This document shows positions 1 through 36,651 of a stretch of DNA of 37,268 bases, piece by piece. The stretch comes from Candidatus Uhrbacteria bacterium. Its GTDB lineage: Bacteria; Patescibacteriota; Patescibacteriia; 2-12-FULL-60-25. The stretch covers positions 1 through 37,268 of the forward strand of contig QIKL01000020.1 of NCBI GenBank assembly GCA_003231955.1. Direction: 5' to 3'. The position numbers and the translations under genes were made by a program. Below the pieces are notes generated by a model. The model ran no database searches and had not been told where the DNA came from. It was given only the letters and a program-made list of their open reading frames with translations. The first letter of the stretch is position 1, and each line of letters begins with the position of its first letter.

Positions 1-832
1 ATTTTTGACCATCCCAGATTTTTAATACCAAACTCCCTGACCATGAAAAAATTACATCGCCAATTTCAACTAAATATTTATCGGCGACTTCTGTTGTTAC
101 CCAATCTGAATTACCACTAATTCCACTATTAAGCTCTTTAATTTTAAGAACTGGTAATTTCTCATTTTCGTTTGTTGGAGGGAATTTTTGGCAAGCCAAT
201 CCGTTTAAGTAATTTGCTATTCCATCTAGCGGTTTCTCTTCCCAACCTTCCTTGGGATCTTCCACAAACCACTTACGAAACAAAGCCTGTGCCATATCTT
301 CCAAAGTTTTATTTTGGCGGTGGAGCAGGTCTATTTTTTCATCCAAGCTACTTAGCACCTCGGCGATGGCTTCTTGTTCATTCGCATCTTTCGGAACAAC
401 CCATTTAGTATCCTTAAGAAAATTCCAGTCTGCACGCGGCATTCGTGTTCCAGATGCACCCGCGTAAGATCTGTCAATAAATTTTTGATTTGCAAAAAAA
501 TAGAAAAGATAGCCAGCATCAAAACCTTTCTTTGGCTTTACAACCCAAATATCAGTTGAACAAACGCCACTAAATTTGGGACGAACAACTTTTCTAAAAT
601 ATGGCCTTAATTTCCCAAACAAAATATCGCCTTTATTGAAATGGAATTTATTACTAGCTAGCCCTGTTGATAGACTAATACCATTCAGTCTTAGTTTATT
701 TTCATCTATATGTTCTAGTCCAATATAAGGAAGATCTAAATCGCCTACTTTCCATGCATTTTTTTGTATAATTGCCATTTCTCTAAGAGGTACATTAGTC
801 CACCCATTTTGTTGTGTTGCTGTTTTAGTCAT
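1..832 (-). CDS. hsdS: Type I restriction-modification specificity subunit HsdS (3' end cut by window edge)
   Basis: An open frame runs on the minus strand from ATG at 832 to base 1 with no stop, giving at least 277 residues. HsdS is the DNA-recognition subunit of a type I restriction-modification complex. The first target-recognition domain covers about residues 1-150 ([27 protein letters not shown]). A conserved helical spacer follows ([19 protein letters not shown], then ALFRKWFVE), and the second recognition domain begins at about residue 195 ([15 protein letters not shown]) and is cut. The start overlaps the end of hsdM by 8 bp, so the two are probably translationally coupled. No hsdR is visible; it could lie past the left edge or be missing. 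The recognition sequence cannot be inferred. Confidence 0.9.
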
Positions 833-2369
833 ATTTAATCTTGCTTAAGTTTTCAGAAATGCGCTTAGTGAGCCCTGTTTCTTCTTTGATTTGTTCTTCA
901 AGTTCAGCTTTTAGAGTTGTAAATCTTTCACCAAAATCAAAATCATCTTCTTCCTCAGGTAAACCAACATACCGCCCCGGTGAAAGTACAAAATCCAATT
1001 CTTTTATTTTTTCAATTGATGTTGAGCTGCAAAAAGCAGGAATATCTTCATATTTTCCGTCCGTCTTTCTCCACTCATGATATGTACTGGCAACTTTTGC
1101 AATATCTTCATCGGTAAATTCTAAAGTACGACGATTTATAAGGTGTCCGAGATTACGCGCATCAATAAAGAGTATTTCGCCAGCTCGATTTCTGTCACCA
1201 TTGAAGCCGTGTCGCTTGTTGGAGAGGAACCACAAACAAGCAGGAATTTGAGTATTCAAGAAAAGCTTACCTGGTAAATTTACAATGCAATCAACAAGAC
1301 CTGCTTCAATTAAGTTTTTGCGTATCACATCTTCGCCACTTGTTTTGGATGTAAGCGAGCCTTTAGCAAGAACAAAGCCAGCCACGCCTTTTGGGGCAAG
1401 GTGATACAAAAAGTGTTGTACCCATGCAAAATTCGCATTTCCTGCTGGCGGTTTTCCATATTTCCATCTGCCATCAGTGGCAAGAAGTTCGCCGCTCCAA
1501 TCACTATCATTAAATGGAGGGTTAGCAATTACAAAATCCGCTTTTAAATCAGGATGTGCATTTTTCAAAAATGATCCTTCCGGATTCCACTTTACCTGCG
1601 ATCCATCTATTCCACGAATAGCTAAATTCATCCGACATAGGCGGTAGGTTGTTTGATTACTTTCTTGTCCGTAAATAGAGATATCGTCGAGTTTTCCTTG
1701 ATGTTCTTGGACAAACTTTTCACTCATTACAAACATTCCACCGCTTCCACAAGCAGGATCAAAGACACGGCCTTTGTATGGCTCAATCATTTCTACTAAA
1801 AGCTTCACTATTGATTTTGGTGTGTAGAATTGCCCGCCCTTTTTCCCTTCAGCCAATGCAAACTCGCCCAAAAAGTATTCATACACTTTGCCAAGAATAT
1901 CTTTTGATTTTGCCGCCTCACTGCCAAGAGCAACATCACCAATCAAATCAATAAGCCCACCAAGAGAAGATTTATCAAGATTTGGTTTTGCAAAAACTTT
2001 TGGCAAAATACCTTTAAGTGTTGGATTTTCTTTTTCAATGAGTTCCATTGCATCGTCGAGGTCTTTGCCAATGGTTGGCAATTTTGCGCGCGAGTGAAGA
2101 TACTCCCAGCGAGCATTTTTCGGCACCCAAAAAACATTTTCTGCCTTGTATTCATCTTGATCTTCAGGGTCAGCTCCTTCGTATTTATCTTTGCCATTCT
2201 TTAGTTTAGTGTGAAGTTCCTCAAAGGAATCCGAAATATACTTGAGAAATATTAAACCAAGCACAATGTGCTTGTATTCTGCCGCATCAATATTTTTACG
2301 GAGTTTATCAGCCGTTTTAAACAGTTGTGCCTCAAAGTTTTCTGATTTTACGGAGTTATTTTTTGTCAT
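825..2369 (-). CDS. hsdM: Type I restriction-modification DNA methyltransferase HsdM
   Basis: The 514-residue product is the modification subunit of a type I system, which methylates adenine using S-adenosylmethionine in complex with HsdS. The N-terminal helical HsdM domain (residues about 10-140) is followed by the methyltransferase fold. The SAM-binding motif [11 protein letters not shown] is at 203-213 and the catalytic NPPF motif of N6-adenine methylases is at 283-286. The phrase [13 protein letters not shown] at about 179-191 is also typical of the family. Length and motif order look complete, so the enzyme appears intact. It overlaps hsdS by 8 bp downstream. The start has no Shine-Dalgarno sequence. 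Neighbouring DNA is AT-rich and a recombinase is divergently encoded, which suggests horizontal acquisition. Confidence 0.95.
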
Positions 2370-2414
2370 AGTTTTACATTCAAGTTAAGTAGTTGTATTG
2401 TATCTGTTTCCACC

Positions 2415-2533
2415 TTATAAATAAACGTTTTCGGAGCGGAGCGGAGAAAACTCCTTATATTCCCCTAATCTAATAAACATTTTTTGTGGAGGTACGGAGC
2501 AAAAAATATCAGATTATCCCCTTTATAAATAAA
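2415..2533. repeat. Two related hairpins bracketed by an 11-bp direct repeat
   Basis: The 11-mer TTATAAATAAA occurs at 2415-2425 and again at 2523-2533. Between the copies lie two inverted repeats. Hairpin 1 has GTTTTC (2427-2432) and GAAAAC (2446-2451) around a loop made of tandem CGGAG units (three copies at 2432-2446). Hairpin 2 has TAATCT plus ATTTTTTG (2466-2486) facing CAAAAAAT plus AGATTA (2500-2516), with a loop that again contains GGAG and CGGAG. Both are preceded by AATAAAC. The module sits between divergent hsdM and the recombinase gene. It could be a recombinase target, a regulatory element or a small mobile element; the sequence does not decide. Confidence 0.6.
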
Positions 2534-2649
2534 AGAAAAAGAAATTTAAAAATTTTTTAAAACAATTGAGCGGTTAGCCCAGAAAAGAAAAGGAATATTT
2601 CAGCTAACTAGTTTTTATCCAAACTATGTAGTTGTACACTAACAATATA

Positions 2650-2678
2650 TTGTATGTTATGCAAACTTTTGCTATTCT
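2650..2678 (+). promoter_or_regulatory. Putative promoter of the tyrosine recombinase, possibly leaderless
   Basis: TTGTAT at 2650-2655, a 17-bp spacer and TATTCT at 2673-2678 fit a sigma-70-like promoter. The start codon lies 6 bp past the -10 element, so the transcript would start at or within a base or two of the ATG. No Shine-Dalgarno sequence is present. Confidence 0.45.
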
Positions 2679-2684
2679 TTCATT

Positions 2685-3497
2685 ATGGAAAATATTTTTA
2701 ACAAAACCGACCGAGTTTTGAAATTGAAAAACTATTCTCCCAAAACTTGTAAAGCATATCTACTCTACATAACTGATTATATCAAATTTTCAAAAAAAAC
2801 CGGAATTAAAAATAAGCAAAAAGCAATTGAGGAATTTTTACTCGATAAACATAAACGTGACCAATCTCCGCAAACAATCAATCTTGCTCTTAACGCCGTT
2901 AAATTTCTATATACAGAAGTTTTAAAAGATTCGCAAAAGATTGATTTGAAATTTACAAAAAGAACAAAGAAATTACCAATTGTGCTTTCACATAGAGAAA
3001 TTGAAAAAATTATTGAAGCAACTGATAATCCAAAGTACAAACTCATGATATCGCTTGGTTATGCTTGTGGTATGAGAGTAAGTGAAGTGATAAGTCTCAA
3101 AATGGCAGATTTGGACATTGACGAACTGGTTGTACATATTAAAAGTGCAAAAGGTAAAAAAGATAGAATAAGCGTGTTATCAAAAAAATTACAAAATGAT
3201 TTACGGAATATAATTGCAAGTAAAAATACAGGAGATTATCTTTTCGGCTCTAATCGTGGTGGTAAACTCACTACAACATCTCTACAAAAAATGTTTCGTA
3301 AGAGTTTGGCAAAAACAAACATAAATAAGCCGGCAACATTTCATTCACTTAGACATAGTTTTGCAACGCATCTATTAGAGAACGGAACGGATGTGCATTA
3401 TGTACAAGAATTGCTTGGACATTCCAACATTCGAACTACTCAAATTTATACCCAAGTCACAAATCCAAAGTTGAAGAATATTAGGAGCCCATTGTAA
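2685..3497 (+). CDS. Tyrosine-type site-specific recombinase (XerC/XerD-like integrase)
   Basis: The 270-residue product has an N-terminal SAM-like core-binding domain (about 1-85) and a C-terminal tyrosine-recombinase domain. The catalytic residues are visible: Arg131 in GMRVSE, a Lys in the AKGKKDR hairpin at about 155-160, His220 and Arg223 in HSLRH, His246 in LLGH and the nucleophile Tyr255 in TTQIYTQ. The enzyme should cut and rejoin DNA through a 3'-phosphotyrosine. It lacks the extra helix-bearing insertion typical of integron integrases. The gene is strikingly AT-rich, has no Shine-Dalgarno sequence, and lies divergent to hsdM. Context suggests an element integrase or an hsdS-shuffling recombinase rather than the housekeeping Xer, but a housekeeping role cannot be excluded. 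Confidence 0.9.
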   Translation: MENIFNKTDRVLKLKNYSPKTCKAYLLYITDYIKFSKKTGIKNKQKAIEEFLLDKHKRDQSPQTINLALNAVKFLYTEVLKDSQKIDLKFTKRTKKLPIVLSHREIEKIIEATDNPKYKLMISLGYACGMRVSEVISLKMADLDIDELVVHIKSAKGKKDRISVLSKKLQNDLRNIIASKNTGDYLFGSNRGGKLTTTSLQKMFRKSLAKTNINKPATFHSLRHSFATHLLENGTDVHYVQELLGHSNIRTTQIYTQVTNPKLKNIRSPL

Positions 3498-3840
3498 CTA
3501 TAATGTAGCGAACCCACAAAAAACCAAAATTTTATCTTTGTATCTTTTTCTTTTCTCCACTTTTTAAAAAATGTTTTTGCAATTTGCTGAAGTAAAATAG
3601 AGGCAAAAATGACGCAGTGAAAACTATAAAGGCTACTACAAAAACATCTTTAGCATACGCAAAATTTTAGAATCATCGCGTACCGAGCCAACTGCCGCGG
3701 TGACTAGCAATAAACAACCCGCGCTTTGCGTGTTCCGCTTTCTTAATTATAATTTTGAAAATAGATTTTAACTTGATACAATAAATACATTAAATGATAA
3801 AAAATAAACTCCTCAACTCAATATTTGACTAGGGTTATTG
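3498..3840. other. AT-rich intergenic stretch after the recombinase
   Basis: No reading frame worth calling is present. The only local structure seen is TTTTTGC (3573-3579) facing GCAAAAA (3603-3609), and a short GC-rich imperfect stem around 3718-3735. The base composition resembles the recombinase gene and changes toward the right, so this may be the edge of acquired DNA. Confidence 0.5.
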
Positions 3841-3861
3841 CAGACCAACTCATCCACGGAG

Positions 3862-3890
3862 TTGACAAAGTTCTGAAACTCATATAGTAT
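3862..3890 (+). promoter_or_regulatory. Strong sigma-70-like promoter upstream of the foldable region
   Basis: TTGACA at 3862-3867 (perfect -35), a 17-bp spacer and TAGTAT at 3885-3890 predict a transcript starting near 3897. A small inverted repeat, CAACTC (3846-3851) and GAGTTG (3859-3864), overlaps the -35 box and could be an operator. Confidence 0.55.
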
Positions 3891-3896
3891 GTATCT

Positions 3897-4075
3897 ACCT
3901 TAGATTCAAGTTCGTCACAGATTTGCCCATCATTGAGCCAATTCTGACGGTCGTGAATTCGGGCCGTAAGGCCACAACACACAGTCCCAGCAAGACATCT
4001 GAAGAATAAACAGTACTTAGATATTCCTGAATTGGATACAGATTCTTATCATTTGAAACTGGGACTGTGCAGTAG
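3897..4075 (+). ncRNA. Candidate structured RNA or long structured leader of the RNase J gene
   Basis: Downstream of the 3862 promoter, three successive stems can be drawn. The first pairs CAGATTTG (3918-3925) with CAATTCTG (3939-3946), one mismatch, with ATTCA (3904-3908) and TGAAT (3954-3958) pairing outside. The second is GGCC-GTAA-GGCC (3962-3973), a perfect stem closed by a GNRA tetraloop. The third is an 11-bp perfect long-range stem, CACAGTCCCAG (3980-3990) with CTGGGACTGTG (4059-4069), enclosing 68 nt with further possible pairing (AAGAAT 4002-4007 with ATTCTT 4042-4047). No coding frame or known RNA family was recognised, and no U-tract terminator follows. It may be a free RNA or part of a 320-nt 5' leader of the gene at 4220. 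Confidence 0.5.
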
Positions 4076-4098
4076 GTACATCACTTTACACATCATAT

Positions 4099-4128
4099 TT
4101 GATACTTAAACATTTAATCATTTATTTT
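4099..4128 (+). promoter_or_regulatory. Possible second promoter before the RNase J gene
   Basis: TTGATA at 4099-4104 and TATTTT at 4123-4128 with an 18-bp spacer lie in an AT-rich stretch about 90 bp before the start codon. The match is weaker than the 3862 promoter. Confidence 0.3.
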
Positions 4129-4219
4129 ATTTCGTTCATTCCGTGACATCTGACATATTCGAAGAGTACTTTTAAGGTGCTCCGTCGATCTCAAGTATCC
4201 GGAAAATCTATCCACTATT

Positions 4220-6367
4220 ATGGATTCTATAAGTTTTTCTCCCGCCACAGACGGGAATGGTTCCGATTCATCTGGAAAAGCAGGACGTAAGCCGTTCCAT
4301 AAAGGGCCTCCCCGTTATAGCCACAGTCCAAAATCTCATTCTAAATCTCATACCTCTCGTTCTTCAGGTACATCTTCGGCGTTTGCCAAGGCTGCGCAAC
4401 GCGCAATCGAAGTAAACTCGTCGACACCTTCTGCATCTAGCGTTTCGTCGATCATCCAAAAAGCAATCGCAAAAAATGGAAAAAAGAATGCAACGCCCGA
4501 CGTGCATAAAATGTCGCTAAAACAAGGATTCAAGCGTGAAGAAGGTCAAAAACCCAGTCCAAAAAGTCCTCGACATACGGGGGGGAAACATAGTGGACGC
4601 ATGGGCGGCGGTGCGTTTCAACGCGAAGCTCGCATGCATACATACAAACATAATCCGTATCTTAAGACAGGAACGGATAAAGATTTCCTAGTTGGTAAAC
4701 CGAACGAGCGCCTAAAGATCGCTGTTCTCGGTGGTAATGAGGAAGTCGGCCGAAATATGACGATGATGGAATACGGCGACGATATCATCCTCATCGACAT
4801 GGGCCTGCAATTTCCGGACGAAGACATGCCCGGCATCGACTACATCATCCCCAATATTTCTTGTCTTAAAGGCAAAGAAAAAAATGTTCGTGGTGTGATT
4901 ATCACCCATGCGCATTATGACCACATTGGTGGTATTCCGCACCTCATGCCCAGACTGGGTAATCCGCCAATTTTTTCAACAGACCTAACGTGCGGTATTA
5001 TCCAAAAACGTCAAGAAGACCATCGCGATGCTCCCCCGCTTAACATGCACATCGTGAAATCAGACGACGTTCTTCGTCTCGGCTGTTTTGAGATTGAATT
5101 CTTCGGCGTTGCGCACTCTGTGCCAGCCTCAATGGGCGTTATCGTAACCACGCCATGCGGTATTATCGTCCATACTGGAGATTTTAAACTTGATCCAGAA
5201 CCTGGAGCACAATCTATCCAAGAAACCGAAAAAATCAAGAAACTCGGGGATCGAAACGTCCTTGCACTTATGATCGACTCGACGAACGCGACCCAACCAG
5301 GCCACCAGCTTCCAGAGCACGACATTCAAACAAACATCGACGAAATCATCGCCGATGCAAAAGGAAAAATTATTATCGGGACGTTTGCCTCAATGATCGC
5401 ACGTATCCAACAGATTCTTCTTGCATGCGAACGTGCTGGTCGCAAAGTCGCCGTCGAAGGATTCTCGATGCGCTCTAATATCGCAATCGCGCAAGAACTC
5501 GGCTATATAAAAGTTCAAAAAGGTACACTCATCGAGACCAAAGAGGCTGTCAAGCTTCCACCAGAAAAGGTGGCAATTGTCTGCACGGGTGCACAGGGTG
5601 AAGAACGCGCAGTTCTCATGCGGATCGCCAACCGTGAACATCCGTTTATCGAAATTGAACCTGGCGATACGGTTGTCTTTTCGTCATCCGTTATTCCAGG
5701 CAACGAGCGTTCGGTTCAGCGCGTGAAAGACACACTTTACCGCGAAGGTGCAAAAGTCATCCATTACAAAATGATGGATGTACATGCTGGCGGACATGCT
5801 AAGCAGGAAGACCTCGTCGAAATGCACGAGATGATAAAACCAAAATATTTGATCCCCATTGAAGGACATTATGCATTCCTATGTGAACATGTGAATACAG
5901 CTGCTGCTGCTGGTTTTCCGCGCGAACGCGCCTTTATTGCCGATAACGGTCAGATTATCGAATTTGACAATAAAGGTAACGGCCAATTGACGAACAAAAA
6001 AGTACCGACCGAGTATGTCTTCGTCGACGGTCTCGGTGTAGGTGACACAAATCACATTATTCTTCGTGACCGTCAGGAGTTAGCTGGAGACGGCATTGTG
6101 ATCGTAATCGCGGTCGTATCAGACCGGACTGGGAAGCTTCTAAACCTTCCAGATATCATCTCTCGTGGTTTTATCTACATGAAGGAGCATACGGAACTCA
6201 TTCAGGCCGCACGAAAAAGAGTCGCCACAGTACTAAAGGACGAAGATCCGCGCTCTGGAGCGAACGCTGTCTACCTCAAAGACAAAATACGAGATGAACT
6301 CGGCGAATTTCTCTACCACAAAACCCAACGCCGTCCCATGATTCTTCCAGTAATTGTGGAGGCATAG
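4220..6367 (+). CDS. rnj: Ribonuclease J with a long disordered basic N-terminal extension
   Basis: The 715-residue product is an RNase J-type metallo-beta-lactamase/beta-CASP nuclease, which combines endonuclease and 5'-3' exonuclease activity in mRNA decay and rRNA maturation. The zinc motif is HAHYDH (His230, His232, Asp234, His235). The family start LKIAVLGGNEEVGRN appears only at about residue 165; the beta-CASP region and the C-terminal motif (GHYAFLCEH, then GDGIVIVIAVV) follow. Residues 1-160 are low-complexity, rich in Ser, Lys, His, Pro, Gly and Arg, with no recognisable domain, unlike the usual 550-560-residue enzymes that lack such a tail. No Shine-Dalgarno sequence precedes the ATG. 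A strong terminator follows, so the gene is probably monocistronic. Confidence 0.95.
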   Translation: MDSISFSPATDGNGSDSSGKAGRKPFHKGPPRYSHSPKSHSKSHTSRSSGTSSAFAKAAQRAIEVNSSTPSASSVSSIIQKAIAKNGKKNATPDVHKMSLKQGFKREEGQKPSPKSPRHTGGKHSGRMGGGAFQREARMHTYKHNPYLKTGTDKDFLVGKPNERLKIAVLGGNEEVGRNMTMMEYGDDIILIDMGLQFPDEDMPGIDYIIPNISCLKGKEKNVRGVIITHAHYDHIGGIPHLMPRLGNPPIFSTDLTCGIIQKRQEDHRDAPPLNMHIVKSDDVLRLGCFEIEFFGVAHSVPASMGVIVTTPCGIIVHTGDFKLDPEPGAQSIQETEKIKKLGDRNVLALMIDSTNATQPGHQLPEHDIQTNIDEIIADAKGKIIIGTFASMIARIQQILLACERAGRKVAVEGFSMRSNIAIAQELGYIKVQKGTLIETKEAVKLPPEKVAIVCTGAQGEERAVLMRIANREHPFIEIEPGDTVVFSSSVIPGNERSVQRVKDTLYREGAKVIHYKMMDVHAGGHAKQEDLVEMHEMIKPKYLIPIEGHYAFLCEHVNTAAAAGFPRERAFIADNGQIIEFDNKGNGQLTNKKVPTEYVFVDGLGVGDTNHIILRDRQELAGDGIVIVIAVVSDRTGKLLNLPDIISRGFIYMKEHTELIQAARKRVATVLKDEDPRSGANAVYLKDKIRDELGEFLYHKTQRRPMILPVIVEA

Positions 6368-12445: not shown

Positions 12446-12898
12446 GCTCGGGTCGGCTAGATGGCTACTCGACCTTGTAAAAGATCGGGAGGAAAGTCCG
12501 AACACCTATCCCGATGCGAATCGGGATATCGTGAGAGCCGTTAACGACGGCCGGGATATAGCGAGGTAAACGAAAGGACACGTGCCAGACGTTTCCACGT
12601 AAACCCAGGGAAAGTGCCACAGAGACTACTCTATCTTCTGTCGCATAAGCTGCAGAGGACAAAGGTGAAAAGTGAGACGATGTGGATTTGCATCTGTGAA
12701 CCTGCTACGCCTCTCCGTCGATGGTGACATCGACGCGCGGCAAACCCTCTCTGGTGCAAGAGCAAGAATCGGTGCGGTAACGCACTGATACTGGTAGCTC
12801 GCTCGAGCCGCGCAGCAATGCACGGCCCAGATAGATTGCCATCACCCCGGTACAATTGTGTCGGGGGACAAAATTCGGCTTATCGGCCGATCCGAGTA
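12446..12898 (+). ncRNA. rnpB: RNase P RNA (bacterial class A)
   Basis: This is the catalytic RNA that removes 5' leaders from tRNA precursors. The conserved region GAGGAAAGTCCG is at 12489-12500, and the 3' conserved ACAAAATTCGGCTTA is at 12868-12882. The P1 helix pairs CTCGGGTCGGC (12447-12457) with GCCGATCCGAG (12886-12896), which fixes both ends. The conserved AGATAGATTGCC at 12829-12840 is also seen. Length is about 450 nt, somewhat larger than the E. coli RNA, with extra hairpins in the middle (about 12630-12760). It is divergent from the FecR gene. Confidence 0.95.
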
Positions 12899-34314: not shown

Positions 34315-35847
34315 ATGTGGTACATCATTATTGCCGTCGCCAGTATTGCAACCGGCGCGCTCCTCGCACGAACATTTGCCTCTGATAAAGCAAAAAAAAT
34401 TCAAGCTCAAATTGATGAGGCTGAAACTAAAGCCAAACAAATCATCGCTCACGCAGAGACTAAGGAACAAAACGTCCTCATTAAAGCCAAAGATAAAGCC
34501 ATTAAAATCCTCGAAGAGGCACGGCTTGAAGAGAAACAGATGACCGAGGAGCTAAAAAAAGATCGCCAAGCACTCGTGGAACGCGAGAATGAATTTGGCA
34601 AAAAAATATTTGAGATTGATGAAAGCCGCAAAACAATTGAGGCTGGTACAATAAAACTCGCTGAAGATAAACAAGAAATAGAACAAATAAAACTCAAGGC
34701 AATGGAACGTCTTGAAGAAGTCTCCGACCTTTCTCGTGATCAAGCCGTGGAACGTATCATGAAAACGATTGAAGAAGAACACGCAGAAGCGCTCATGTCT
34801 CGAATACGTAAAATCGACGAGATGGACACGGAAGAAGTCGAACGCAAGGCAAAAAACATTATCGCCGTCGCGATCCAGCGTATCGCATCCTCAACGGTCT
34901 CTGAGACTACAACAAGTTATGTGGAGCTACCTTCGGATGACATGAAAGGCCGTATTATCGGTAAGGAAGGACGCAATATCAAGGCGCTTGAGTGGCTCAC
35001 GGGCTGCGAACTTATTGTGGACGACACGCCTGGTATCATCACGATCTCGGGGTTTTCCCCCATTCGTCGCCAGGTTGCAAAACGTGCGCTTGCAAAGCTT
35101 CTCAAAGACGGACGAATTCATCCAGGCCGTATAGAGGAAGCAATCGACGAATCCAAACGTGAAATTGCGATTGATATCAAGAAAGCTGGCGAGGATGCGG
35201 TCTTTCAACTCGGCATTCAACTCACGGGGATTGATCCTAAACTCATCCAGATCCTAGGAAGACTTAAATACCGCACGTCATTTGGCCAGAACGCGCTCAT
35301 GCACTCAATTGAGGTCGCCAATATCTCTGCGCTCATGGCGGAAGAACTTAAAGCAGACGTCTCGATTTGCAAAAAAGGCGGGCTTTTTCATGATATCGGC
35401 AAGGGTGTGGATCACGATATACAGGGCGGACACCCTGAACTTGGCTATCAAATCATGAAAAAATTCGGATTGCCCGAAGAGATCTGCTACCAGTCAATCG
35501 GTCATCACGAGGATAAGCCAAAAACACTGGAAGCCGTGATCGTAAAATCCGCGGATGCTATTTCCGGCGCACGTCCAGGTGCACGCAAAGACAATCTTGA
35601 ACTCTATGTAAAGCGATTAGAGGATTTAGAACGTACTGCCGCGTCATTTGAAGGCGTGGAAAAAGTCTATGCGATCCAAGCTGGTCGTGAGATTCGCATC
35701 TTTGTAAACCCCAGCCATATCGATGATATTTCAGCTACGAGATTGGCACGGGACATAGCGAATAAAATCGAAGCGGAATTAAAATATCCCGGCGAGGTCC
35801 GTGTGACTCTCATCCGCGAGACTCGTATTATCGAATACGCAAGATAG
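34315..35847 (+). CDS. rny: Ribonuclease Y
   Basis: The 510-residue product is the membrane-tethered endoribonuclease that starts mRNA decay. It has one N-terminal membrane helix (about 2-20), a long charged coiled coil (about 25-190), a KH RNA-binding domain with GRIIGKEG (212-219) and an HD hydrolase domain with LFHDIGKG (His359, Asp360) and further metal ligands in HHED (397-400). Length and order are typical. Another ATG 4 bp upstream is out of frame. The next gene starts directly after the stop, giving the known rny-ymdB pairing. Confidence 0.96.
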   Translation: MWYIIIAVASIATGALLARTFASDKAKKIQAQIDEAETKAKQIIAHAETKEQNVLIKAKDKAIKILEEARLEEKQMTEELKKDRQALVERENEFGKKIFEIDESRKTIEAGTIKLAEDKQEIEQIKLKAMERLEEVSDLSRDQAVERIMKTIEEEHAEALMSRIRKIDEMDTEEVERKAKNIIAVAIQRIASSTVSETTTSYVELPSDDMKGRIIGKEGRNIKALEWLTGCELIVDDTPGIITISGFSPIRRQVAKRALAKLLKDGRIHPGRIEEAIDESKREIAIDIKKAGEDAVFQLGIQLTGIDPKLIQILGRLKYRTSFGQNALMHSIEVANISALMAEELKADVSICKKGGLFHDIGKGVDHDIQGGHPELGYQIMKKFGLPEEICYQSIGHHEDKPKTLEAVIVKSADAISGARPGARKDNLELYVKRLEDLERTAASFEGVEKVYAIQAGREIRIFVNPSHIDDISATRLARDIANKIEAELKYPGEVRVTLIRETRIIEYAR

Positions 35848-36651
35848 ATGACCTTTTTTAAGATCCTTTTTTTTGGTGACATTATCGGCGCAATCGGACG
35901 CGACGGCGTGATAAGGGCGCTCCAAGAGCTCCGAATGGAACTCTCACCTGATCTTATTATCGCGAACGTTGAGAATCTATCGCATGGCCGTGGTATCTCA
36001 GTAAAAAGTCTCTTGGAACTTGATACAAGCGGTATTGATGCCTACACATCCGGTAACCACGTCTGGGAAAATACTCAGGGGGTAACTTGCTTTGACGATC
36101 CGCGATGGAAGGATCGACTCGTACGTCCAGGCAATATCATTTCTGGACGTCCAGGACGTGGATCGACGATCATTAAAAAATGTGGCGTACGTGTTCTCAT
36201 TATAAATCTCCTTGGCCAGATCTTCATGAAAGACGAAGTCATGAATCCATTCAAAGCCATAGATGGAATTTTACGAGATCCTATGGATGTGGATCTGGCG
36301 CTCATTGACCTCCACGCTGAAGCGACATCAGAAAAAGAAGCCTTTGGCCATTATGTGGATGGCCGAGCGGCCGCTGTATTCGGAACCCATACACACGTCC
36401 CAACCGCGGACCAAAAAATCCTACCTGGCGGAACTGCCTATGTGACAGATATCGGACGGAATGGGGCCATGGACTCGGTAATTGGATTTGAAAAAAATAG
36501 TGCTGTTACGGCATTTTTAGACCCTTCTACTAAATCCTATGGACTTCCCAAACATGGAAAGATCGAGATCAATGCGATACTCCTGACAATTAATATTGAT
36601 GCTAAACGTGCGGCGAGTATTGACCGAATAAGAAAAATTGTTGATGGATAA
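35848..36651 (+). CDS. ymdB: YmdB-family metallophosphoesterase (cyclic-nucleotide phosphodiesterase)
   Basis: The 267-residue protein is a TIGR00282/YmdB-family calcineurin-like phosphoesterase; the B. subtilis homologue is a 2',3'/3',5'-cyclic nucleotide phosphodiesterase that affects biofilm and motility decisions. Metal-binding motifs are FGDIIG (Asp11), NVENLSHGRG, TSGNHVW and GTHTHVPTAD. It starts on the base after the rny stop, so it is translationally coupled. If it cleaves 3',5'-cAMP it could oppose the cyclase at 8393-10399, which is speculation. Confidence 0.94.
   Translation: MTFFKILFFGDIIGAIGRDGVIRALQELRMELSPDLIIANVENLSHGRGISVKSLLELDTSGIDAYTSGNHVWENTQGVTCFDDPRWKDRLVRPGNIISGRPGRGSTIIKKCGVRVLIINLLGQIFMKDEVMNPFKAIDGILRDPMDVDLALIDLHAEATSEKEAFGHYVDGRAAAVFGTHTHVPTADQKILPGGTAYVTDIGRNGAMDSVIGFEKNSAVTAFLDPSTKSYGLPKHGKIEINAILLTINIDAKRAASIDRIRKIVDG

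Follow-up and report, generated by a model that had tools for sequence, protein, structure and literature searches.

In many bacteria RNase J serves as the main 5' exonuclease. The question raised by this locus is whether the leader of its gene (rnj) carries an RNA structure that is under selection and, if so, what that structure may do for expression of the enzyme. The sequence derives from Candidatus Uhrbacteria bacterium (GCA_003231955.1, contig QIKL01000020.1), and the term window is used here for the whole stretch of DNA that was analysed, 37,268 nt of the forward strand. A preliminary description had claimed a promoter with a perfect -35 box, followed by three stems in a structured leader upstream of rnj. 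The features of the locus are listed below.

3862 to 3890, forward strand: sigma-70-type promoter recognised from sequence, with -35 box TTGACA (3862-3867), a 17-nt spacer and -10 box TAGTAT (3885-3890)
3897 to 3902, forward strand: predicted start of transcription, about 7 nt past the -10 box, with approximately 6 nt left unpaired at the 5' end
3903 to 3959, forward strand: conserved rnj 5'-terminal hairpin, 57 nt, supported by covariation and by covariance model matches to 32 of the order's 41 genomes
3962 to 3973, forward strand: GGCC hairpin with a GUAA loop, GGCC(GUAA)GGCC, present here and not conserved
3980 to 4069, forward strand: perfect 11-bp long-range stem, CACAGTCCCAG (3980-3990) with CTGGGACTGTG (4059-4069), in this genome only
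4220 to 6367, forward strand: rnj, encoding RNase J, 715 aa (Pfam beta-lactamase, RNase_J_b_CASP and RNase_J_C domains)

The next gene after the leader encodes a full RNase J, as judged by its Pfam domains. An N-terminal extension of approximately 165 aa (window 4220-4720) is basic, of low complexity and without a Pfam domain, and a short motif resembling SIIAKAV..LKEGLAREE is common to the corresponding extension in relatives. Just 5' of the rnj promoter lie a type I restriction methylase-like gene (825-2369, reverse strand) and a tyrosine recombinase gene (2685-3497, forward strand), the upstream neighbour of rnj being variable from genome to genome. The same window also holds RNase Y (34315-35850, Pfam RNase_Y_N) and RNase P RNA (12449-12898). 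A Shine-Dalgarno-like motif precedes the first ATG in only two of the 23 window frames of at least 200 aa, this being a crude check as some of these frames may start elsewhere than at the first ATG.

Promoter and leader of rnj

The promoter is present as described, in the form TTGACA-17-TAGTAT, and a promoter of the type TTGAC[A/C/G/T]-17-TANNNT is located directly upstream of the conserved hairpin in 30 of 31 aligned leaders, the remaining one (L011) not being scorable as only 27 nt of its contig precede the element. The distance from the end of the -10 box to the first column of the element is 4-14 nt in 29 leaders and 30 nt in L033. Since the -10 box is thus positioned just ahead of the element, the rnj message probably begins, at a start site predicted from sequence, with a few unpaired nucleotides that are followed by the hairpin. 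The element is separated from the rnj start codon by 61-410 nt on the same strand, and neither the sequence of the intervening stretch nor the length of the leader is conserved among relatives. Its position is that of a cis-regulatory leader, being in the 5' UTR, on the same strand as rnj, past a promoter and in most genomes. The interval from the element to the start of rnj contains no intrinsic terminator (3500-4400 examined), and a transcription attenuator was rejected on this ground; the free small RNA that had been offered as an alternative is likewise unlikely, given the lack of a terminator before rnj and the strict association of the element with rnj on the same strand.

The claim of a structured leader was borne out, as a free energy of -52.3 kcal/mol (z = -3.3) is predicted for the fold of 3897-4080, with none of 200 shuffled sequences folding as well, and no known family covers it: a search of Rfam 15 at both thresholds, in which the RNase E leader was included, returned for the leader region only chance hits with E values of 1.1 and 3.4. 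Among 14 other strong promoters in control loci, three are followed by a 5'-terminal domain of at least 45 nt, and at least two of these three are diverged rnj leaders; in this small control, at most one of some ten strong promoters of genes other than rnj has such a domain.

All three stems of the preliminary description can be found in the sequence, but the two stressed there, the GNRA-capped GGCC hairpin and the 11-bp long-range stem, lack conservation. When family leaders were compared, neither had a counterpart in the closest relatives: an unrelated GGCC hairpin occupies the same place in L008, scattered unrelated second hairpins occur there in some relatives, and most relatives have no GGCC hairpin at all. 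Both stems were consequently ruled out as conserved features. Perfect pairing of this kind had been considered hard to explain as chance; none of 300 shuffles of 3897-4075 reached a perfect 11-bp stem, although seven of 413 overlapping 179-nt tiles of the window (the leader tile included) contain a perfect stem of at least 11 bp. A repeated or mobile origin of this region was rejected, since it is present as a single copy in its own genome.

Architecture and covariation of the 5' hairpin

Alignment of homologues yields one extended hairpin, the length of which ranges from 54 to 82 nt across Uhrbacteria. In the genome under study its parts are located as follows.

3905 to 3910, forward strand: 5' arm of the outer helix, pairing with 3952-3957, with 3909 x 3953 mismatched here (covarying columns 3-58 and 8-53)
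3913 to 3917, forward strand: 5' arm of the middle helix, CGUCA, pairing with UGACG at 3945-3949 (the three strongest covarying column pairs)
3918 to 3919, forward strand: 2-nt bulge CA, columns 16-17 (column frequencies)
3920 to 3923, forward strand: GAUU, pairing with AAUUC at 3940-3944 around a single bulged U at 3942 (alignment and covariation)
3925 to 3938, forward strand: variable terminal hairpin with arms 3925-3929 and 3934-3938 (comparison of genera)

The outer helix is formed by alignment columns 3-8 with 53-58, in which columns 5-56 are often mismatched as A-G or G-G, while column pair 3-58 reads UA, AU or GC and column pair 8-53 reads GC, UA, GU, AU, CG or UG across genomes. A 2x2 internal loop separates it from the middle helix, which consists of 5 bp (columns 11-15 with 46-50) and occurs among genera as CGUCG/CGACG, UGUUG/CAACA, UAUUG/CAAUA, CUUUG/CAAAG and UUUCG/CGAAA. 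The first base of the adjoining bulge is C in 90% of genomes despite being unpaired. Columns 18-21 pair with 41-45 as two 2-bp segments with one U or C bulged out between them, the GAUU segment covarying to AG/CU, GG/CU and similar combinations in other genera, and at the tip pairing is retained while both sequence and length differ between genera. Conserved unpaired positions are few. When 31 sequences were each folded alone, essentially the same shape was obtained, with a mean z of -3.0 and a few sequences with weak z-scores. Just 3' of the element, three leaders (L023, L022 and L034, from genera g12 and g19) share a short block, AATTTAAGAGTTA / AATTCAAGAGTTC.

Covariation was assessed in three ways. 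Double-change cells numbered 97 in 29 sequences, as against 33.6 ± 5.4 upon shuffling, all slide controls being far lower. Parsimony on an RNase J protein tree identified 24 compensatory events in 16 pairs, compared to 2-8 with slid partners. In a simplified R-scape-like test, which is approximate as its tree was built from the short element itself, the top three of all 903 column pairs were pairs of the middle helix, with E values of 0.08, 0.08 and 0.39 over 903 pairs, or approximately 0.001-0.007 if limited to the 16 proposed pairs; no other helix pair was individually significant in this test. The comparison with relatives that the preliminary description had proposed therefore supports its first hairpin and neither the GGCC hairpin nor the 11-bp stem. 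The 5' hairpin is a selected RNA structure and represents a conserved RNA family.

The roughly palindromic nature of the element, and the weak match of its model to the opposite strand, could point to a DNA operator, i.e. an inverted repeat bound by a repressor at the rnj start. Outside the tip, however, G-U pairs outnumber A-C pairs by 22 to 9, an excess which favours an RNA of the rnj strand, the bulges are asymmetric, and the tip hairpin shifts in length and sequence with pairing retained, all of which renders an operator highly improbable. With the tip included the G-U and A-C counts do not differ, a consequence of the tip lacking a common register in the alignment.

Distribution of the element

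When 57 genomes were searched at the DNA level, only window positions 3904-3957 were matched; the matches came from four further members of the family and were each upstream of rnj (in L005 on the minus strand). Three covariance models (R1, R2 and R3) were run against whole genomes. R1, built from 15 sequences, alone recovered further genomes, with all matches upstream of rnj. As genomes of this same family went into R2 and R3, their recovery by these models is expected; what is informative is that each genome has a single locus, that this locus is always linked to rnj and that the element is absent elsewhere. R3 matches 32 of the 41 genomes of the Uhrbacteria order, representing 18 of 21 genera, and all 32 have the match at a single locus upstream of rnj; in one genome a weak palindromic echo appears in addition on the opposite strand. 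Among the nine genomes without a match, two lack an rnj hit and the one hit in G058 is weak and comes from another gene than rnj, while in the other six (genera g11, g15 and g17) a consensus promoter is directly followed by a diverged 5' hairpin.

The class search covered 381 genomes, at least 36 of them from the same family, and gave no real match among the approximately 345 outside the order; a phylum search gave no match among approximately 374 other genomes. The only outside matches in the class search, weak ones in G042 from another family, were dismissed as unrelated tandem DNA repeats; repeats of approximately 37 nt (TCACGGTCGTGAGTTTTGAGAA...) underlie the weak chance matches of the model at L156 (G042:C78) and L157. 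Two rnj leaders of Andersenbacteria (L089 and L103, at approximately 2400-3000) share a different conserved block, CTAGCGT..TTGAGCCGTATTTC, after a consensus promoter; this block is not matched by R3 and is possibly another rnj leader element.

No earlier description of the rnj leader motif was found in the literature searched. It is well supported that the rnj message of Uhrbacteria carries at its 5' end a structured RNA which is absent from Rfam and from that literature, and which adds a structured RNA family to the Candidate Phyla Radiation, for which the literature searched holds little on such elements.

Putative function and known leaders of decay enzymes

Occurrence of the hairpin only at rnj, combined with its conserved unpaired bases, is best explained by a feedback element. 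On balance we favour the view that the hairpin is a cis-acting leader controlling decay or translation of the rnj mRNA, most likely through feedback by RNase J; autoregulation by this enzyme is the most natural model and a plausible one. In such a scheme, the 5'-terminal hairpin would shield the rnj message from attack by a pyrophosphohydrolase and a 5' exonuclease, RNase J or its decay complex would, when in excess, recognise the conserved bulges (the C-N and the U), and this recognition would trigger decay or block expression of RNase J's own message, such that the level of RNase J would track demand. The hairpin would thereby probably let the cell tune the amount of RNase J that is made. 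The more specific proposal that the hairpin is a sensor of RNase J, a structure which the enzyme must recognise in order to start decay of its own message, has a somewhat less than even chance of being correct; if true, the RNA itself would directly gauge how much RNase J capacity is free in bacteria that have no RNase E.

The main rival to feedback is a constitutive 5' stabiliser that blocks access of RppH and RNase J and renders the rnj message long-lived. Hairpins at the 5' end are known to stabilise mRNA against the RNase J pathway in Bacillus, where BsRppH requires unpaired 5' nucleotides (PMC3997798); the hairpin described here, judged by its distance from the -10 box, probably lies within a few nucleotides of the 5' end, and a fixed stabiliser that exerts no feedback would be expected to leave largely similar traces. 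Against this, conserved bulges are not required in a generic stabiliser, which should also occur on other genes, whereas the motif is found only at rnj and its conserved unpaired C suggests specific recognition, for which reasons we regard a stabiliser as unlikely, if less so than the other alternatives.

RNase III or RNase Y might also open the message to decay by cutting within the hairpin, as in rnc and rny leaders. Both enzymes are encoded in nearly all genomes (each in 39 of 41), and RNase Y of Bacillus subtilis, in an autoregulatory manner, cuts its rny message within the 5'-terminal 50 nt (PMC10303841). The helix is, however, short and interrupted for RNase III; in addition, the element-bearing genomes G009 and G019 lack an RNase III hit and the nearly complete genome G002 lacks an RNase Y hit, which is weak evidence since draft or divergent genomes may hide such hits. 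A processing site is therefore considered improbable. Conservation of the internal loop and bulges could alternatively reflect a site for another protein or a small ligand, as in a riboswitch or a different type of regulator, yet neither a terminator nor a conserved expression platform was detected, and the element, which is small for a ligand pocket, is strictly linked to one RNA-decay gene, which makes this reading more improbable still.

RNase J itself is encoded in these genomes, with the exceptions given above, while RNase E/G was detected in none of the 41 although the search controls were positive, which rules out a leader of the RNase E type. A compact conserved hairpin at rnj offers a testable element for the balance of RNA decay in bacteria that lack RNase E.

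Feedback by RNase J through a leader has a precedent. In Helicobacter pylori, RNase J (of the RNase J-RhpA complex) represses its own gene via the rnj 5' UTR (PMC5874925), this being the only report of such feedback in the literature searched; the likeness to the present element is one of described behaviour, the phylum is unrelated, and the available part of that source describes no defined RNA structure. A structured leader on the message of the main decay ribonuclease is also found in Escherichia coli, where binding of RNase E to a hairpin in its own leader brings about repression (cited in PMC3997798), but this is another enzyme family, one that is missing here, the rnj element has no match to any Rfam family, and the rnj hairpin, unlike the rne structure, is at the extreme 5' end. 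Bacillus subtilis rny resembles rnj in that the message of a decay enzyme is held down by that enzyme through events close to the 5' end, RNase J1 acting as the exonuclease (PMC10303841), and differs in that multiple cleavages in the leader and early coding region are involved instead of one conserved hairpin. Stem-loop stabilisers such as that of the Bacillus subtilis aprE leader share the placement of a hairpin at or near the 5' end; they are generic structures, in contrast to the rnj element with its conserved sequence, bulges and linkage to a single gene.
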